Part shown: piece by piece, positions 45,415 to 59,484 of the stretch | Layout: the number at the start of each line of letters is the position of its first letter | Numbering within the stretch: position 1 is the stretch's first letter | From: Acinetobacter sp. HR7 | GTDB lineage: Bacteria > Pseudomonadota > Gammaproteobacteria > Pseudomonadales > Moraxellaceae | Direction of reading: 5' to 3' | Length of the DNA: 64,000 nucleotides | NCBI RefSeq assembly: GCF_000773685.1 | Contig: NZ_JPQO01000215.1 | Location: forward strand, 1 to 64,000 | Notes under the pieces: generated by a model | What the model saw: only the letters and a program-made list of their open reading frames with translations | Told to the model about the DNA's origin: nothing | Databases searched by the model: none | Translations under genes and position numbers: made by a program

Positions 45415-45435
45415 TTGATCAGAATACGACCAAAG
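45415..45435 (+). promoter_or_regulatory. candidate CrbR binding site upstream of acs
   Basis: TTGATCA (45415-45421) and ACGACCAAAG (45426-45435) both recur before the actP operon. A promoter follows 14 bp later: TTGAAA (45450-45455), 17 bases, then GATTAT (45473-45478). The site would sit about 50-60 bp before the transcription start, a usual place for an activator. Confidence 0.55.
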
Positions 45436-45549
45436 CATGATTGTCCAACTTGAAATAAGCAGTTCATACTGCGATTATGCATAAAAAACAATCAATAAAG
45501 TGGCATGAACCTCTCGTGATGAGATGGAAGAAGATCAAGGAAGTAAAGA

Positions 45550-47493
45550 ATGAAAGAGATCTATCCTGTACCAGAAGAATTCAAGAAAACCGCACGGACC
45601 ACCGAGGCTGAATATTTTGAACGTTATAAACGTTCTATTGAAGAGCCGGATGTGTTCTGGACCGAACAGGCTCAGCGCCTCGACTGGATCAAGCCATTTA
45701 GCAAAGTCAAAGATACCAGTTTTGATAAAGACAATTTCAAGATCGAGTGGTTTGCTGATGGTCAGCTGAATGTGAGTGCCAACTGTCTGGATCGACATCT
45801 GAAAGAACATCCGTATAAGCCGGCGATTATCTGGGAAGGCGACCATCCCTCCCGTCACAAGATTATTTCCTTTCATGAGCTATATGATGAAACCTGCCGC
45901 TTTGCCAATGTACTGAAAAAGAACGGGATTAAAAAAGGTGATCGCGTCGTATTGTATATGCCAATGGTCTCTGAAGCGGCGATAGCCATGCTGGCCTGTG
46001 CCCGTATTGGTGCGGTGCACTGTGTCGTGTTCGGTGGTTTCTCTCCAGACTCATTGGCCAGCCGAATTGAAGACAGTCAGGCGAAAATGGTGATTACTGC
46101 AGACTCGGGTATGCGCGGCGGCAAGCAGATTCCACTGAAAGCCAATGTGGACGAAGCACTGAAATTGCCAGGAACTGAGTCGGTACAGAACGTGATCGTG
46201 GTCCACCGGACTGGTAACCCGATTGAAATGAAGGAAGGTCGTGACCTGTGGTATCACATGGAAATCATGACCGTGAATGAAATCTGCCCGCCAGAGCCGA
46301 TGAATGCGGAAGATCCGCTGTTTATCCTGTATACCTCAGGTTCAACAGGGAAACCGAAAGGGGTGCTGCATACCACCGGTGGTTATCTCACTTATGTAAA
46401 CTGCAGTTTCCGTGAAGTCTTTGATATTAAACAGGATGATGTGTTCTGGTGTACTGCCGATGTGGGCTGGATTACTGGGCATTCTTATGTGCTCTATGGT
46501 CCACTGTCTAATGGTACCACTACCCTGATGTTTGAAGGTGTGCCGCAATATCCGACCTGGGCACGTACCGGGCATATCGTCGACAAGCACAATGTCACTA
46601 TTCTCTATACCGCGCCAACTGCGATTCGCGCCATGATGCGTGAAGGCGATGCTTTCGTGCGTGAAAGTGACCGCAGCAGTCTGCGTCTACTCGGTTCGGT
46701 GGGTGAGCCGATCAATCCAGAAGCTTGGAACTGGTACTACAGTGTTGTAGGCGAAAGCCGCTGTCCGATCGTGGATACCTGGTGGCAGACCGAAACCGGT
46801 GGTTTCATGATCACACCATTGCCGGGTGCAACGGATCTGAAACCCGGTTCAGCGACACGACCATTCTTTGGGGTTCAGCCTGCGATTGTGGATGCTGAAG
46901 GCAAGGAGTTGGAAGGTGCAGCCGAAGGCAATCTGGTGATCAAGGATTCCTGGCCAGGTCAGATGCGCACCATCTGGGGGGATCCAGAACGCTTTATTGA
47001 GGCCTATTTCTCGACTTATCCGGGGACTTATTTTACCGGTGACGGCGCGCGCCGTGATGAAGATGGTTATTACTGGATTACCGGCCGTGTTGATGACGTG
47101 CTGAATGTATCCGGACACCGTCTGGGTACGGCGGAAATTGAAAGTGCACTGGTGGCACATGAAGCGGTTGCTGAAGCGGCTGTAGTCGGTATGCCGCACG
47201 ACATCAAAGGACAGGGCATTTGTGCTTTTGTGACGCTGCAGGCTGGTACGGAAAGCGCAGAGGAGTTGCGTGCTGAGCTGGTGGCCTGGGTACGTAAGAT
47301 ACTTGGACCGGTCGCGACCCCGGATGCTCTGCACTGGGCACCGGCATTACCGAAGACCCGTTCTGGCAAAATCATGCGCCGGATTTTGAGAAAAATAGCG
47401 GCGAATGAGTTGGATAGCCTTGGCGATACCTCGACTTTAGCCGAACCACAGGTAGTCGATAACCTGATTGCTGAAGTGCAAAGAAAAGCTTAA
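45550..47493 (+). CDS. acs: acetyl-CoA synthetase (AMP-forming)
   Basis: Activates acetate to acetyl-CoA through acetyl-AMP. It has 647 residues. The AMP-binding loop is [14 protein letters not shown], the hinge region includes [21 protein letters not shown], and [14 protein letters not shown] carries the lysine that is regulated by acetylation in related enzymes. GGAAG is placed for the ATG. The upstream motif shared with actP, together with crbS/crbR 6-13 kb away, points to acetate-switch control. Confidence 0.97.
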
Positions 47494-53583: not shown

Positions 53584-54237
53584 ATGAATATTTTAATCGT
53601 TGATGATCATCCCCTGTTTCGTCATGCTTTAATTCAAGCCGTTCGTTATAGCTTGCCGCAAGCTCAAATCCATGAGACTGCTGCCGTCAATGAATTCTAT
53701 GAACGCCTCGAGAATGGCCCTGAACCTGATCTTGTGCTACTCGACCTGAACCTGCCAGGGGCTTCTGGTTTCTCTGCTCTGGTTCACGTGCGTGCCCAAT
53801 ATCCTTCGATTCCAATTATTGTGGTATCGGCACACGAAGAAGTCAGCATTATCCAGCGTGCGATTGCACACGGTGCAATGGGCTATATTCCAAAATCAGC
53901 ACATCCAAGCCATATTGGTGAAGCGATTCGTGAAGTGCTGGAAGGCGAAATCTGGTTACCACCAAATCTGCCGGTTGCCAACATGAACTTTGACCCGCGT
54001 GCTGCGGATGAAACGGCACTGGCTGAGCGAATCCAGTCTTTAACACCGCAACAGTTCCGTGTACTGATGATGGTGGCTGAAGGTTTGCTGAATAAACAGA
54101 TTGCCTATGAACTGGATGTGTCTGAAGCAACTATTAAGGCACACGTTACGGCAATCTTCCGTAAACTGGGTGTACAGAACCGTACCCAGGCGGTACTGGC
54201 GATCAATGCATTGAATATTGAAGAAAAGAAAATCTGA
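53584..54237 (+). CDS. crbR: NarL/LuxR-family response regulator, CrbR/ErdR-like
   Basis: A 217-residue response regulator. The receiver domain has the acidic pair in ILIVDDHPLF, the phospho-accepting Asp in LVLLDLNLPGASG and the Lys in YIPKSAHPSH. The C-terminal LuxR-type HTH is LTPQQFRVLMMVAEG to VSEATIKAHVTAIFRKLGVQNR. The partner kinase is CrbS at 55478, and acs and actP are likely targets. The frame is open from a GTG at 53560; the ATG at 53584, directly before the first beta strand, fits better. Confidence 0.85.
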   Translation: MNILIVDDHPLFRHALIQAVRYSLPQAQIHETAAVNEFYERLENGPEPDLVLLDLNLPGASGFSALVHVRAQYPSIPIIVVSAHEEVSIIQRAIAHGAMGYIPKSAHPSHIGEAIREVLEGEIWLPPNLPVANMNFDPRAADETALAERIQSLTPQQFRVLMMVAEGLLNKQIAYELDVSEATIKAHVTAIFRKLGVQNRTQAVLAINALNIEEKKI

Positions 54238-54300: not shown

Positions 54301-55062
54301 TTAGGCAATGCAATCCTGTTTAGGTGTCAGATCCGCACAGAACAATGGATTTAGCGCGCATTGCAATTCATCAATCTGTTCTTGGGTGACATAACCTTTA
54401 TCGATTAAGTATTCTGCCACGCGGTCATCACGCAGACTCAGGAAAGCGGCATCATATACACCCAGATCAACAAACAGCGCTGCGGTTTCCAGACTGTTGA
54501 AGCGGTCCAGATATACGTCATTGCCATACATCAGGAACACATGGTCATAGTCCGCCATTGGTTCCACACGCAGGCGTTCTGCCAGTTCGTGTGGTGAAGT
54601 CTTAATGAAGAGCAATTCTGACAGCTCATCAAAATGGTTGGTATCCAGCTGGTCTTCACCGGTTTTGACTTTGCCCAGCCAAGCTTTGAATACCAGTACC
54701 GCACCGCCACGCAGCAACATACTCCAGATTTGGTGACGAGTGTGTTCACTCAGTTCAACTGATGCTTCTTCTAAAGACTGGATCAGTTTGTCTTCCTGTT
54801 CGGCCAGACGTTCGAACAGACCCAAGCCCTGTGGCTTATAGGCATGTGGTTCAAATACATCAAAATGCAGTTCATCAAACACCTGCAGGGCGAGGGGAAC
54901 AGCACACTGATATAAGGTTTCCAGCGCTTCGACCTGAGCTTCATTCAGCTTGCTGTATTTAAACAGCTGGATCCAGTTGATTTCAGGCAGCATGGCATTG
55001 GCACCATACTGACGGTGAAACTGTCGGCTCTGATTGATGTCAGGGATAATATCTAAGCTCAT
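54301..55062 (-). CDS. uncharacterised protein between crbR and crbS
   Basis: A 253-residue soluble, acidic, mostly helical protein with no signal peptide or membrane segment. I do not recognise the family. It is rich in Leu and Glu; notable parts are NWIQLFKYSKLNEAQVEALETLYQCAV, a DYDHVFLMYGNDVYLDRFNSLETAALF stretch and a C-terminus with three cysteines (CALNPLFCADLTPKQDC). A good AAGGATG precedes the ATG. It lies between the sensor kinase and regulator genes, and an acs/actP-like motif stands 125-150 bp upstream. It may belong to the acetate regulon, perhaps as a modulator; this is inference. Confidence 0.6.
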   Translation of the reverse strand: MSLDIIPDINQSRQFHRQYGANAMLPEINWIQLFKYSKLNEAQVEALETLYQCAVPLALQVFDELHFDVFEPHAYKPQGLGLFERLAEQEDKLIQSLEEASVELSEHTRHQIWSMLLRGGAVLVFKAWLGKVKTGEDQLDTNHFDELSELLFIKTSPHELAERLRVEPMADYDHVFLMYGNDVYLDRFNSLETAALFVDLGVYDAAFLSLRDDRVAEYLIDKGYVTQEQIDELQCALNPLFCADLTPKQDCIA

Positions 55063-55186
55063 AATTCGTCATCCTTTATGCAGTAATAACTGATCAGCTG
55101 CCATGGGGGATGAGGGTGATCGACATGGTTGAAACTGATCGTTTCTTAATTCCTATTTTCAGGGTTAAAACCTGGGTTAGGAAAGT

Positions 55187-55210
55187 ACGACTAAAGTTCA
55201 AATTATGACC
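55187..55210 (+). promoter_or_regulatory. candidate CrbR-type motif
   Basis: ACGACTAAAG followed by TTC, AAATTA and TGACC. Over 24 bases it differs from the actP-operon site (59045-59068) at only five positions. It lies on the strand opposite to the gene it would control (54301-55062). Confidence 0.45.
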
Positions 55211-55429: not shown

Positions 55430-55458
55430 TGCCTGTTTTACACTAGGTAAAACAGGCA
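55430..55458 (-). terminator. intrinsic terminator of crbS
   Basis: A perfect 12-bp stem, TGCCTGTTTTAC / GTAAAACAGGCA, with loop ACTAG; on the minus strand it is followed by TTTTTA. Confidence 0.92.
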
Positions 55459-55477: not shown

Positions 55478-58400
55478 TTAGCGATCTGAAATTTTTAAAC
55501 CGGATAACCAAGAACGTAGAGAGGCTGGTTTCAGCGGCTTTTTCAGCAGCACGATATTTAAATCTTTTAGTTGTTGTGGCAGTTCCGGATCAGAATCGGC
55601 AGTAATCAAGGCGACTGGCACATCATTTTGGCGATTGGCCATAATGAAGTCCAGACCACGCTTGTCATTATTCAAGTGTTGATCGACTAACCAGACCTGA
55701 ATATTTTCCTGCTCGATTAGCTGTTGTGCCTGTTCTGGCTCAGTCGCTTTAAATACCTCATAGCCCCATTTGGTCAGCAGGGTCGACATGCCTTCCAGAA
55801 TGGTTTCATCATTGTCCAGACACAGGACTTTAAAGGCTTTGGATTTCAGCGGAACCGCCTGTACCGGTGCTGGTACGACTTTTGGAGCCTCGGTCAGCGG
55901 TACGTCAATCATGAAGCAGGAACCTTTGCCGAGTTCAGAATAGACATGTACCGGATAGTCCAGCATGCTGGTCATACGCTGTACGATGGCCAGACCCAAG
56001 CCCAAACCCTGTTCACCCCAAGGTGAGGTATGACCACAGCGCTCGAATTCCTGGAACAGCTTGATGCGCTGTTCTTCGGCAATACCCGGACCAGTATCCC
56101 AGACCCCGATACGGATATGATTCGGTCGGTTACTTGAACGCAGCACGCCGACCACGACTTTACCGCGTGCGGTATAACGCAGGGCATTGCTGACGAAGTT
56201 CTGGATAATCCGGCGAATCCACTGTGGATCGGTATCAATCCAGAACTGGGCATCATGTACGCTCAGTTTGATGCCACGTTGGGCTGCAATCGATTTGAAT
56301 TGCAGTTCCAGATCGCTGAGCAGGTCATGCAATGGATAGGCCTGACGTTTCGGCTGAATGGTACCGCCTTCCAGACGCGCAATATCCAGCAGGGCAGAGA
56401 GCATGCTTTCTGCGCCATGCAGCGCACGATCCAGTTGCTGCAAGGTTTTGCGGTCTTCTTCACTTTGCACACTTTGTTCCAGAGCGGTACTAAATAGACG
56501 CGCGGCATGCATTGGCTGTAACAGGTCATGACTGGCGGCGGCAATAAATCGGCTTTTGGACATATTGGCTTTGTCCGCTTGTTCACGTGCCAGTTGCTGT
56601 TCCGATAAAGCATCAGCCAGCTGCTGGGTACGTTCACGCACGCGAGCTTCCAGCACTGCTTCATTTTCACGGAAAGCGGTAATATCGGCAAAGGTGGTCA
56701 CGAAACCACCACCTTCAATTGGGTTCCCGCGCATCTGGATCACACGGCCATCTTTACGGATCCGCTCGAATTCATGCGCACTACCGACCTGCATCCAGTG
56801 AATCCGTTTACGCACGTGTTCTTCCACTGAACCTGGACCACATTCACCACGTTCAGCGTTATAACGGATCAGATCTGCGATCGGACAACCAACATAAACA
56901 ATATCTTTTGGATAATCGAACAGCTTCAGGTACTGGTTGTTCCAGGCCACCAGACACATGTTTTCATCGACGACGCTGACCCCTTGGGTCATGTGGTCGA
57001 TCATGGTCATGATCAGGTTCTGGTTAAAACGCTGCCATTGAGAAGCTTGGTCAAGAATGTTGGCGACCTGGCCGAGTGCCAGACCATTATTCACCATCGC
57101 GGTCGTTAGCAGAGTACGAGCGGAAGCGGCGCCAATGGTTCCCGCCAGATACTGTTCGGTAAAACGCCACCACATGCCATTGGCACTACTGCTTTCATTT
57201 AGCTCGACACTATTTTGATTACAGAACTGCTGGAATGCGCGCATGGTTGGTTCTTCACCGGTAATGCGTTTGGCCAGGGTAATCAGGTCACCGACTTTAA
57301 GACGCGCGACATCCTGATGGGAATAGCTGACATCAGTGCTTGGACTCTGCGATGGCAATGGCTTAGTTTCATAATAGAAAAAACTTTCTGCCTGAATCTG
57401 TTCCGCCACGCTTGGACGGAAAATTCGTGACACCCAGACATACAGTAGCAAATTCAGGCCCAGCGACCAGACCACGCCATGGGTCAGGGAGTTGAAAGAT
57501 TCAAAGCCAATCAGGGCTTCTGGACGTAGCCAGTTCCAGCCGAATGGACCGAAGTTCAGAAAATCCTGACTAAACTGCTGGAATGGTTCCGGTAGGCTAC
57601 GCAGAATGGTCGGCAACAGCAGGGTATAGGCCCATAGTGCGAAACCAGTCAGTAGACCAGCATAAACCCCCTGTTTACTGCCACCACGCCAGTACAGTCC
57701 ACCAATCAGGGCAGGGGCGAATTGCGCTACCGCACTGAAGGCCAGTAAACCGAATACGGACAGCTGGTCGATATCATTAAAGAAATTATAGAACAGAAAG
57801 CCCAACAGCATTACGGCCAGAATACAGACACGGCGAGTGAATTTCAGTACCAGTGGTAGACGTTTGTCATGCCGTGAAATCAGGTTTGTACGCCAGAGTG
57901 CCGGCATGATCAGGTCATTACTGAGCATGATCGACAGCGCCACAGAAGACACTAGTAACATACCGGTGGATGCCGAGAAACCGCCAAGGAAGGCCAGTAA
58001 TGTGAGCCAGTCCTGGTTATAGCTGAGCGGCAATGACAGTACAGCCACATCCGGAATCGCCAGATAATGTGGGGCAGCATGTAGTGCCCAGCTGGCAATT
58101 GGAACGATCGCGATGGTGGTCAAAATCAGATAGATAGCAAACCAGCGACGCGCACCACGGATATGTTTTTCATCACGGAGTTCGACTACAGCCACGTGAA
58201 ACTGGCGTGGCAAACAGATAATTGCCAAAGCAGCCAGCAGGGTTTGTACCCAGAAACTTTCCGGTACCCCAAACATTTGCACATCGTGGAAAGTGCTACG
58301 GATGTCAGTGCTGATCTGGGTAATATTGCTCGGTTCAGCAAAGACAAAAAAGCCCGCGACGGCTAGTAAGGCAAATAGCTTAACGAAAGATTCAAAAGCC

Positions 58401-58969
58401 ACCGCCAGCATCAGACCGCCATGCTGCTCGGTATTGGCAATCTGCCGGGTACCGAAAATCATCGCTAGAATCGCCAGTACACCAGTCAGGAACAGCACGC
58501 TGTTGGTCGTGCTGGCAATCCCACCGGTAGGTTCTAAAATCACGGAGGCACTTAAGGCAATGGCACGTAACTGCAAGGCCAGGTAAGGAATAATCGCAAT
58601 GACGGCCAGAATCGTGACCAGCGAAGCGAGCGGGCCACTCTTGCCATAACGTGCAGCGACGAAGTCGGCGATGGAGGAAATCGCATGGTGCTGACGAACC
58701 CGTCCCAGACGTCGCCAGATATCATAACCGATGGCAACAAACAGTAATGGACCCAAGTATATTGGCAGAAAAATGATGCCTTCACGGACCGCTGCTCCAG
58801 TCGCGCCGTAGAAGGTCCAAGACGAGCAGTAAACCCCTAAAGTTAAGCTAAACAATAACATGCGCCCACGAGTACTCAAGCGACTCGCGTGTTTTTCTCC
58901 GAAGAAAGCGCAGATAAAGAGTAATGCGATATAGAGGGTGAGGACCCCGATGATGAGCCAACTATTCAT
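55478..58969 (-). CDS. crbS: SSS-family transporter-fused hybrid sensor histidine kinase, CrbS-like
   Basis: A 1163-residue membrane kinase. Residues 1 to about 500 form a sodium:solute symporter domain of about 13 helices. A linker (about 545-650) resembles the STAC domain of such kinases. A PAS domain follows (about 660-775, VSVVDENMCLVAWNNQYLKLF). HisKA has its phospho-acceptor at H814 (AASHDLLQP), then comes an ATPase domain (DTGPGIA, GLGLGLAIVQRM) and a receiver domain with D1096 (WLVDQHL). This architecture is that of CrbS/MxtR, which with CrbR controls acetate use. crbR, actP and acs are all nearby. Confidence 0.9.
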   Translation of the reverse strand: MNSWLIIGVLTLYIALLFICAFFGEKHASRLSTRGRMLLFSLTLGVYCSSWTFYGATGAAVREGIIFLPIYLGPLLFVAIGYDIWRRLGRVRQHHAISSIADFVAARYGKSGPLASLVTILAVIAIIPYLALQLRAIALSASVILEPTGGIASTTNSVLFLTGVLAILAMIFGTRQIANTEQHGGLMLAVAFESFVKLFALLAVAGFFVFAEPSNITQISTDIRSTFHDVQMFGVPESFWVQTLLAALAIICLPRQFHVAVVELRDEKHIRGARRWFAIYLILTTIAIVPIASWALHAAPHYLAIPDVAVLSLPLSYNQDWLTLLAFLGGFSASTGMLLVSSVALSIMLSNDLIMPALWRTNLISRHDKRLPLVLKFTRRVCILAVMLLGFLFYNFFNDIDQLSVFGLLAFSAVAQFAPALIGGLYWRGGSKQGVYAGLLTGFALWAYTLLLPTILRSLPEPFQQFSQDFLNFGPFGWNWLRPEALIGFESFNSLTHGVVWSLGLNLLLYVWVSRIFRPSVAEQIQAESFFYYETKPLPSQSPSTDVSYSHQDVARLKVGDLITLAKRITGEEPTMRAFQQFCNQNSVELNESSSANGMWWRFTEQYLAGTIGAASARTLLTTAMVNNGLALGQVANILDQASQWQRFNQNLIMTMIDHMTQGVSVVDENMCLVAWNNQYLKLFDYPKDIVYVGCPIADLIRYNAERGECGPGSVEEHVRKRIHWMQVGSAHEFERIRKDGRVIQMRGNPIEGGGFVTTFADITAFRENEAVLEARVRERTQQLADALSEQQLAREQADKANMSKSRFIAAASHDLLQPMHAARLFSTALEQSVQSEEDRKTLQQLDRALHGAESMLSALLDIARLEGGTIQPKRQAYPLHDLLSDLELQFKSIAAQRGIKLSVHDAQFWIDTDPQWIRRIIQNFVSNALRYTARGKVVVGVLRSSNRPNHIRIGVWDTGPGIAEEQRIKLFQEFERCGHTSPWGEQGLGLGLAIVQRMTSMLDYPVHVYSELGKGSCFMIDVPLTEAPKVVPAPVQAVPLKSKAFKVLCLDNDETILEGMSTLLTKWGYEVFKATEPEQAQQLIEQENIQVWLVDQHLNNDKRGLDFIMANRQNDVPVALITADSDPELPQQLKDLNIVLLKKPLKPASLRSWLSGLKISDR

Positions 58970-59030: not shown

Positions 59031-59068
59031 TTGATCATTTTTTAACGACCAAAGTCTAAATTACAACC
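59031..59068 (+). promoter_or_regulatory. candidate CrbR binding site upstream of the DUF485-actP operon
   Basis: TTGATCA (59031-59037), then ACGACCAAAG (59045-59054), with a second ACAACC at 59063-59068. A GATAAT -10 lies at 59098-59103 with no clear -35, as expected of an activator-dependent promoter. The region also serves crbS on the other strand. Confidence 0.55.
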
Positions 59069-59151: not shown

Positions 59152-59484
59152 ATGGATGAGGTGCAGGTAGAAAGAATTCTACAGAATCCCAAATTCAAAG
59201 AAATGGTGCGCAGAAAGCGTAACCTGAGCTGGACCTTAACAGCCATCATGTTGTTTGTCTATGTCGGCTTTATGTTGCTGGTAGGCTACAACAAAGAATT
59301 TCTATTGTCTTCCATTTCAGGCGGTGTGACCACGTGGGGGATCCCATTGGGTCTAGGCATTATTGTTCTGTCATTTGTTCTGTGCGGTGTGTATTCCTAT
59401 ATTGCCAATAACAGACTTGATCAATTGAACCAAGAAGCGGTGCGCGAAGTTGAAGCGATTGCTCATGAAAAAGGACCACACTAA
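59152..59484 (+). CDS. DUF485 membrane protein (YjcH-like)
   Basis: A 110-residue inner-membrane protein with two helices ([20 protein letters not shown] and a second near [20 protein letters not shown]). The N-terminal [20 protein letters not shown] is the DUF485 opening. E. coli YjcH lies between acs and actP in the same way. Its role is unknown, but it always accompanies SSS-type acetate carriers. The frame runs from a TTG at 59131; GGAG fits the ATG at 59152. actP begins 1 bp after its stop. Confidence 0.92.

Follow-up and report, generated by a model that had tools for sequence, protein, structure and literature searches.

A gene for a 253-residue protein at the acetate-switch locus of Acinetobacter sp. 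HR7 is, in our judgement, highly likely to be a lineage-specific addition to the acetate regulon of CrbS/CrbR (EmaS/EmaR), under the direct control of CrbR acting at an ACTU site. The gene, referred to below as the focal gene, lies in the window analysed here, a stretch of 64,000 nucleotides (contig NZ_JPQO01000215.1, positions 1 to 64,000). Its promoter carries a conserved copy of the DNA site of the switch, so its expression very probably rises along with that of the acetate-use genes. The best reading of the sequence comparisons is that it is a dispensable CrbR target, which would add to the Acinetobacter acetate/ethanol regulon a conserved gene that is undescribed in the open-access main texts searched.

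In the proposed mechanism, whose general steps are those of the published system, use of acetate (or ethanol) would lead to the activation of CrbS by acetate and to the phosphorylation of CrbR. We infer that phosphorylated CrbR would bind the ACTU site just upstream of the -35 position of the focal gene and activate the gene. RNA polymerase would then be recruited to a weak -35, and the focal gene would be induced together with actP and acs.

Locus organization

The plus-strand order at the locus is crbR (+), the focal gene (-), crbS (-) and yjcH-actP (+), in agreement with the first-pass annotation of this DNA, which had placed the gene between the kinase and its regulator. The focal gene (54301..55062, minus strand) is an open reading frame with homologues in 61 of the 71 genus genomes examined, and its start is backed by a conserved N-terminus and an AGGAG-like sequence in relatives. 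The emaR/erdR-like response regulator crbR (53584..54237, plus strand) contains the Pfam domains Response_reg and GerE; its best NCBIfam match is ErdR, with 252 bits, under the cut-off of 390. The hybrid kinase crbS (55478..58969, minus strand) is emaS/mxtR-like and matches PAS_7, HisKA, HATPase_c and Response_reg. Its N-terminus is called SLC5-like after the published family, as this part had no match in the Pfam search. The yjcH-actP operon begins at 59152 and acs occupies 45550-47493, both on the plus strand.

The focal gene lies downstream of crbS on the same strand, with 415 bases between them, and the ACTU site is inside this gap. A terminator-like hairpin after crbS (55430..55458, minus strand; 12 pairs, then TTTTTATT) separates the two genes. 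This hairpin is weak evidence on its own, because two such sites were found where 1.8 are expected in shuffled sequences.

Sequence and predicted structure of the protein

The protein is acidic, with 43 D+E against 20 K+R, and is 57-88% identical in 58 aligned relatives; two of the 60 loci, L040 and L046, were omitted from this alignment (no ATG by script). The reading frame of the L040 homologue (genome G033) appears shifted in its N-terminal part, either naturally or through a sequencing error. Among the best 80 of 111 loci, the closest named copy is that of Acinetobacter schindleri (87% identity). Conservation is highest at residues 113-133 (WSMLLRGGAVLVFKAWLGKVK) and 185-212.

A Pfam search with the protein gave no match at E≤1. 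Searches of Pfam, NCBIfam and PDB sequences with the family gave weak, scattered matches and no convincing family, and no known signalling domain was found in the family profile searches. The single NCBIfam match of the protein was to NF053729 (E 0.083, 12.7 bits versus a cut-off of 38). This MshE-type c-di-GMP-binding domain was rejected as an assignment: the match is a 16-residue C-terminal stretch below the cut-off, and one of 60 members matches. Nor do we assign the protein to the phasins (PF05597); 12 of 59 members match this family, with a best E of 0.023, and the protein of the window has no match. The description of the gene product as a 253-residue acidic protein of no known family is thus borne out.

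An AlphaFold model was computed from 60 sequences, namely the protein of the window and 59 of the 80 named loci (the best 80 of 111). It has a mean pLDDT of 82.5 and a pTM of 0.80. The model consists almost entirely of helices, apart from a small β hairpin at residues 177-184, and is of low confidence at both ends. Searched with Foldseek against the PDB and viral libraries, the whole model gave no match at E≤0.001, and the best VIA-align Z score of the whole model among 469 chains was 3.5. The C-terminal part modelled alone has a mean pLDDT of 75.1 and a pTM of 0.58, and had no Foldseek match in the PDB at E≤0.001, which is no proof of a new fold. Structure prediction, proposed earlier as a check, therefore gave a mostly helical model but no convincing fold match.

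The ACTU site and its conservation

Its sequence identifies the site at 55187-55210 as the ACTU motif, which is the published site of CrbR. On the minus strand it appears as the near-palindrome TTGAACTTTAGTCGTA (55186..55201), which resembles the published motif and contains the conserved core ACTTTAGTCGTA (55197-55186). Position by position, 55187-55210 is identical to the site of the actP operon (59045-59068) at 19 of 24 bases, exactly as first reported; the next-best place in the window reaches 16 of 24 and the best place in 60 simulated windows 18. A pattern built from these two sites finds exactly those two.

The intergenic region upstream of the focal gene was compared in 61 genomes of the genus, including that of the window, read on the strand of the gene. 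The core matches at 12 of 12 positions in 42 genomes, 11 in 12 and 10 in 7, so that every one of the 61 carries it at ≥10/12, between 79 and 196 bases upstream of the start of the gene. Two hundred permuted cores reached this threshold in a mean of 2.03 of the 61 regions (maximum 43, none ≥50). In named-genome loci (the best 80 of 111), the core was present at ≥10/12 in 80/80 and at 12/12 in 64; these loci share species with the 61 genomes and are not an independent sample.

The site extends to four loci of a sister genus (4/4), where GAYTTAAGTC is followed at the same offset by TATAAG (three loci) or GATAAG (one), with the forms GACTTAAGTC in three and GATTTAAGTC in one. The form GACTTAAGTC was missed by the scored scan and spotted by eye, and its spacing was then checked by script.

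The unit conserved on the gene strand is TANNACTTTAGTCGTATTC. The AAATTA and ACC blocks, which had been listed as shared with the actP site, do contribute to the 19/24 match in the window but are not conserved among relatives; they are on the far side of the motif from the focal gene, and in the intergenic comparison the closest relative has them only in part. The copy in the window is among the poorer ones, with a full 12-base core, the left half TTGAAC and the -10-like hexamer CTGAAA. A 19-base genus pattern (TACRACTTTAGTCGTATTC), searched with up to three mismatches, did not recover the window's own site.

Pattern scans discriminate poorly. The loose ACTU pattern has 11 matches in the window against 4.2 expected, and 260 in the whole genome of the strain against 684 for the reversed control; motif matching alone is therefore weak and cannot name a regulon, and conservation carries the argument instead. 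Twenty whole genomes together contain the exact 12-mer 17 times and its reversed control 56 times. Ten of the 17 occurrences are at the focal gene by coordinates and seven elsewhere, and the four gene-less genomes among the 20 contain none.

Distribution and linkage to the switch genes

The search that found the focal gene in 61 of the 71 genus genomes detected it in none of 44 others. In a family-wide draw it was detected in 81 of 249 genomes: 76 of at least 91 in the genus, four in one sister genus, and one short match with stops that was taken as spurious. A class-wide draw gave one match in 369 genomes, the genome of the strain itself. The sister genus shows the same layout in all four loci found (51-53% identity): crbS and crbR flank the gene, and yjcH-actP and acs are nearby.

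The gene stays with the kinase more faithfully than with the regulator. crbS is its direct neighbour in 60 of the 61 genomes, with about 2 kb between them in the last (L085, genome G027). The L085 locus has about 1.6 kb of extra DNA there, including a stretch weakly similar (37%) to the DNA-binding end of CrbR. Among the named loci (the best 80 of 111), crbS precedes the gene in 79 of 80, the remaining locus being cut off by the end of its contig; crbR falls within the examined stretch in 57. In the 61 genomes, crbR is within about 1.2 kb of the gene in 45 and about 2 kb away in one; in the other 15 it lies on a different contig or at a distance of 70 kb or more. Linkage to the two switch genes, the proposed check on the association, thus holds for crbS but not for crbR in 15/61. 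No orthologue in the genus was found away from crbS or without the motif.

Of the ten gene-less genomes of the genus, all have crbR and nine also have crbS, which carries an internal TGA in one of them (G020); the tenth, which is 65% complete, gave only weak kinase matches. In six of the nine with crbS, the crbS and crbR matches end at most 240 bases apart on opposite strands. A FastTree tree was built from 75 CrbS sequences, leaving out L217 (a duplicate of L090), G030 and G032 (neither represented by a locus). On it, absence of the gene requires four changes and relocation of crbR five, or four without unlabelled rows. The gene has apparently been lost about four times in the genus; losses are the simplest reading because the sister genus has the gene. 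Several gene-less loci (L214, L215, L216, L220, L127 and L128) have long CrbS end branches (0.08-0.23, versus a median of 0.025), those of the gene-less L124 and L221 not being long; the long branches may reflect general fast evolution or relaxed constraint.

The first-pass annotation had suggested that the gene encodes a component or a target of the acetate switch. Since crbS and crbR persist without it in several lineages, it is no obligatory component. The notion of a target is strongly supported by the site in 61/61 genomes, the promoter geometry, the neighbourhood of crbS and the sister genus, from which CrbR control of the gene is predicted.

A weaker version of the component idea would make the protein a third, auxiliary part of the switch that exerts feedback on signalling by binding to CrbS (or CrbR), the loop being closed by the ACTU promoter. 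We regard this as rather unlikely. It would account for the lasting association of the gene with crbS through four or five relocations of crbR on the CrbS tree, and it is compatible with putative regulation of the gene as a target through the conserved site; factors acting via the REC domain of EmaS have also been hypothesised (PMC10891947). Against it, the switch genes persist after the roughly four inferred losses, the protein has no known signalling domain, and its place beside crbS could be mere inertia. A more specific version, in which a CrbR-induced helical protein of new fold would act as a third element of the SLC5-STAC switch in Acinetobacter, setting the gain of acetate sensing through its binding to CrbS, is unlikely.

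Returning to the protein as the product of a dispensable CrbR target, our guess, which we hold with considerable doubt, is a soluble helical accessory that tunes CrbS or an acetate-assimilation protein by contacts and belongs to no known enzyme class.

Relation to known acetate-switch systems

In Pseudomonas fluorescens, the ACTU motif is required for CrbR-mediated activation, and the CrbR regulon genes reported with this motif are acs, actP, pflu0110 and pflu5625 (PMC5715377). One of the sites listed there, TACGACTAAAGTCTAAA, differs from that of the window at 2 of 17 positions. The CrbR regulon and the focal gene have in common a TACGAC-N4-GTC-type inverted repeat directly before the -35 position and the link to the acetate switch. 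They differ in that the annotated regulon genes of P. fluorescens are other kinds of protein, judged by their names only (PMC5715377), and in that, among the genomes searched, matches to the focal gene were confined to Acinetobacter and one sister genus.

The locus is of the same kind as the EmaSR locus of A. baumannii ATCC 19606 (emaS, DJ41_3172; emaR, DJ41_3170), which governs actP and the use of ethanol and acetate (PMC9603970; PMC10891947). Mutants in emaS or emaR fail to grow on either acetate or ethanol, and the double mutant expresses less actP on ethanol (PMC9603970; PMC10891947). Loss of the switch, reported to abolish growth on ethanol and acetate, is also reported to reduce virulence in a wax-moth model (PMC9603970). 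The focal gene presumably corresponds to DJ41_3171 in this strain, as indicated by the numbering and the conserved gene order rather than by the ATCC 19606 sequence; DJ41_3171 is not mentioned in the main texts of either report (PMC9603970; PMC10891947).

The site of the yjcH-actP operon itself (AACGACCAAAGTCTAAA; 59044..59060, plus strand) is conserved at ≥14/17 in 59 of 60 genomes, a count from which L085 is omitted as the start of its crbS lies outside the locus. An ACTU-like half site precedes acs (TACGACCAAAGCATGA; 45425..45440, plus strand), its GAC 123 bases before the acs start; it matches the actP site at 16 of 24 positions, tied with other places in the window. A near-identical half site, TACTACCAAAGCATGA, precedes acs in both sister-genus loci checked (L210 and L212).

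The published EmaR box, xCTTATxxxxAT(A)xAT (PMC9603970), is a different sequence from the conserved ACTU site. In its strict form it was found in none of the 61 intergenic regions of the focal gene and in three of the 60 crbS-actP regions; in a relaxed form it was found in two of 61 and, before actP, in one of 60. The box tested is that of the first paper; the second (PMC10891947) gives a longer consensus. Because ACTU is present in 61/61 and 59/60 of the respective regions versus 0/61 and 3/60 for the strict box, we think that the true site of EmaR/CrbR in Acinetobacter is ACTU. We accordingly propose it as a candidate EmaR binding site that is more conserved than the published box, and the motif described so far for EmaR may have to be revised.

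The palindrome might serve a LuxR-type regulator other than CrbR, as ACTU is a dyad of the LuxR family and the genome contains more GAC-N4-GTC palindromes. We consider this quite improbable, given that the site shares its locus with crbS and crbR and is close to the actP site and to the published CrbR motif in both sequence and geometry.

Near-perfect ACTU-like palindromes were also seen at L091 (contig C39 of the strain's own genome) and L104 (contig C167). These places are near a DctA-like symporter gene and between transporter-like and phosphoenolpyruvate carboxykinase-like genes (names assigned by eye), and are possible further targets.

Promoter geometry and orientation

Directly after the ACTU motif on the minus strand, a weak hexamer occupies the presumed -35 position (55180..55185; motif positions +12 to +17). 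The presumed -10 position (55157..55162; +35 to +40) reads CTGAAA in the window and CATAAA in the genus consensus. Its spacing from the motif is the same, within a base, as in the actP promoter. With the start of transcription placed seven bases after the -10, we infer that the ACTU motif lies near -51 to -35 of the focal gene. This geometry fits the mapped acs promoter of P. fluorescens, where the motif is at -52 to -36 (PMC5715377).

The near-palindrome leaves the direction of the promoter to be read from its flanks, and the conserved promoter elements are on the side of the focal gene, that is, on the minus strand. In 57 distinct sequences, five of the six -10 columns (+35, +36 and +38 to +40) are 81-95% conserved. 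TATTC at +10 to +14 is also conserved on the gene side, and the other side less so. In this AT-rich region, similarity to TATAAT is no guide to direction, the two sides of the palindrome scoring alike (mean 3.9 versus 3.7 of 6). The earlier statement that the motif lies upstream of the gene is thus upheld, but it had been read on the plus strand and the gene is on the minus strand. Because both sites had been read on the plus strand, where the window's copy resembles the actP site over 24 bases, we weighed an antisense or small RNA driven from this site towards the 3' end of crbS, with another promoter for the focal gene, and rejected it on conservation as highly improbable: relatives do not share the likeness outside the palindrome, and at the -10 position one gene-side column is conserved at up to 1.9 bits versus at most 0.55 on the mirror side.
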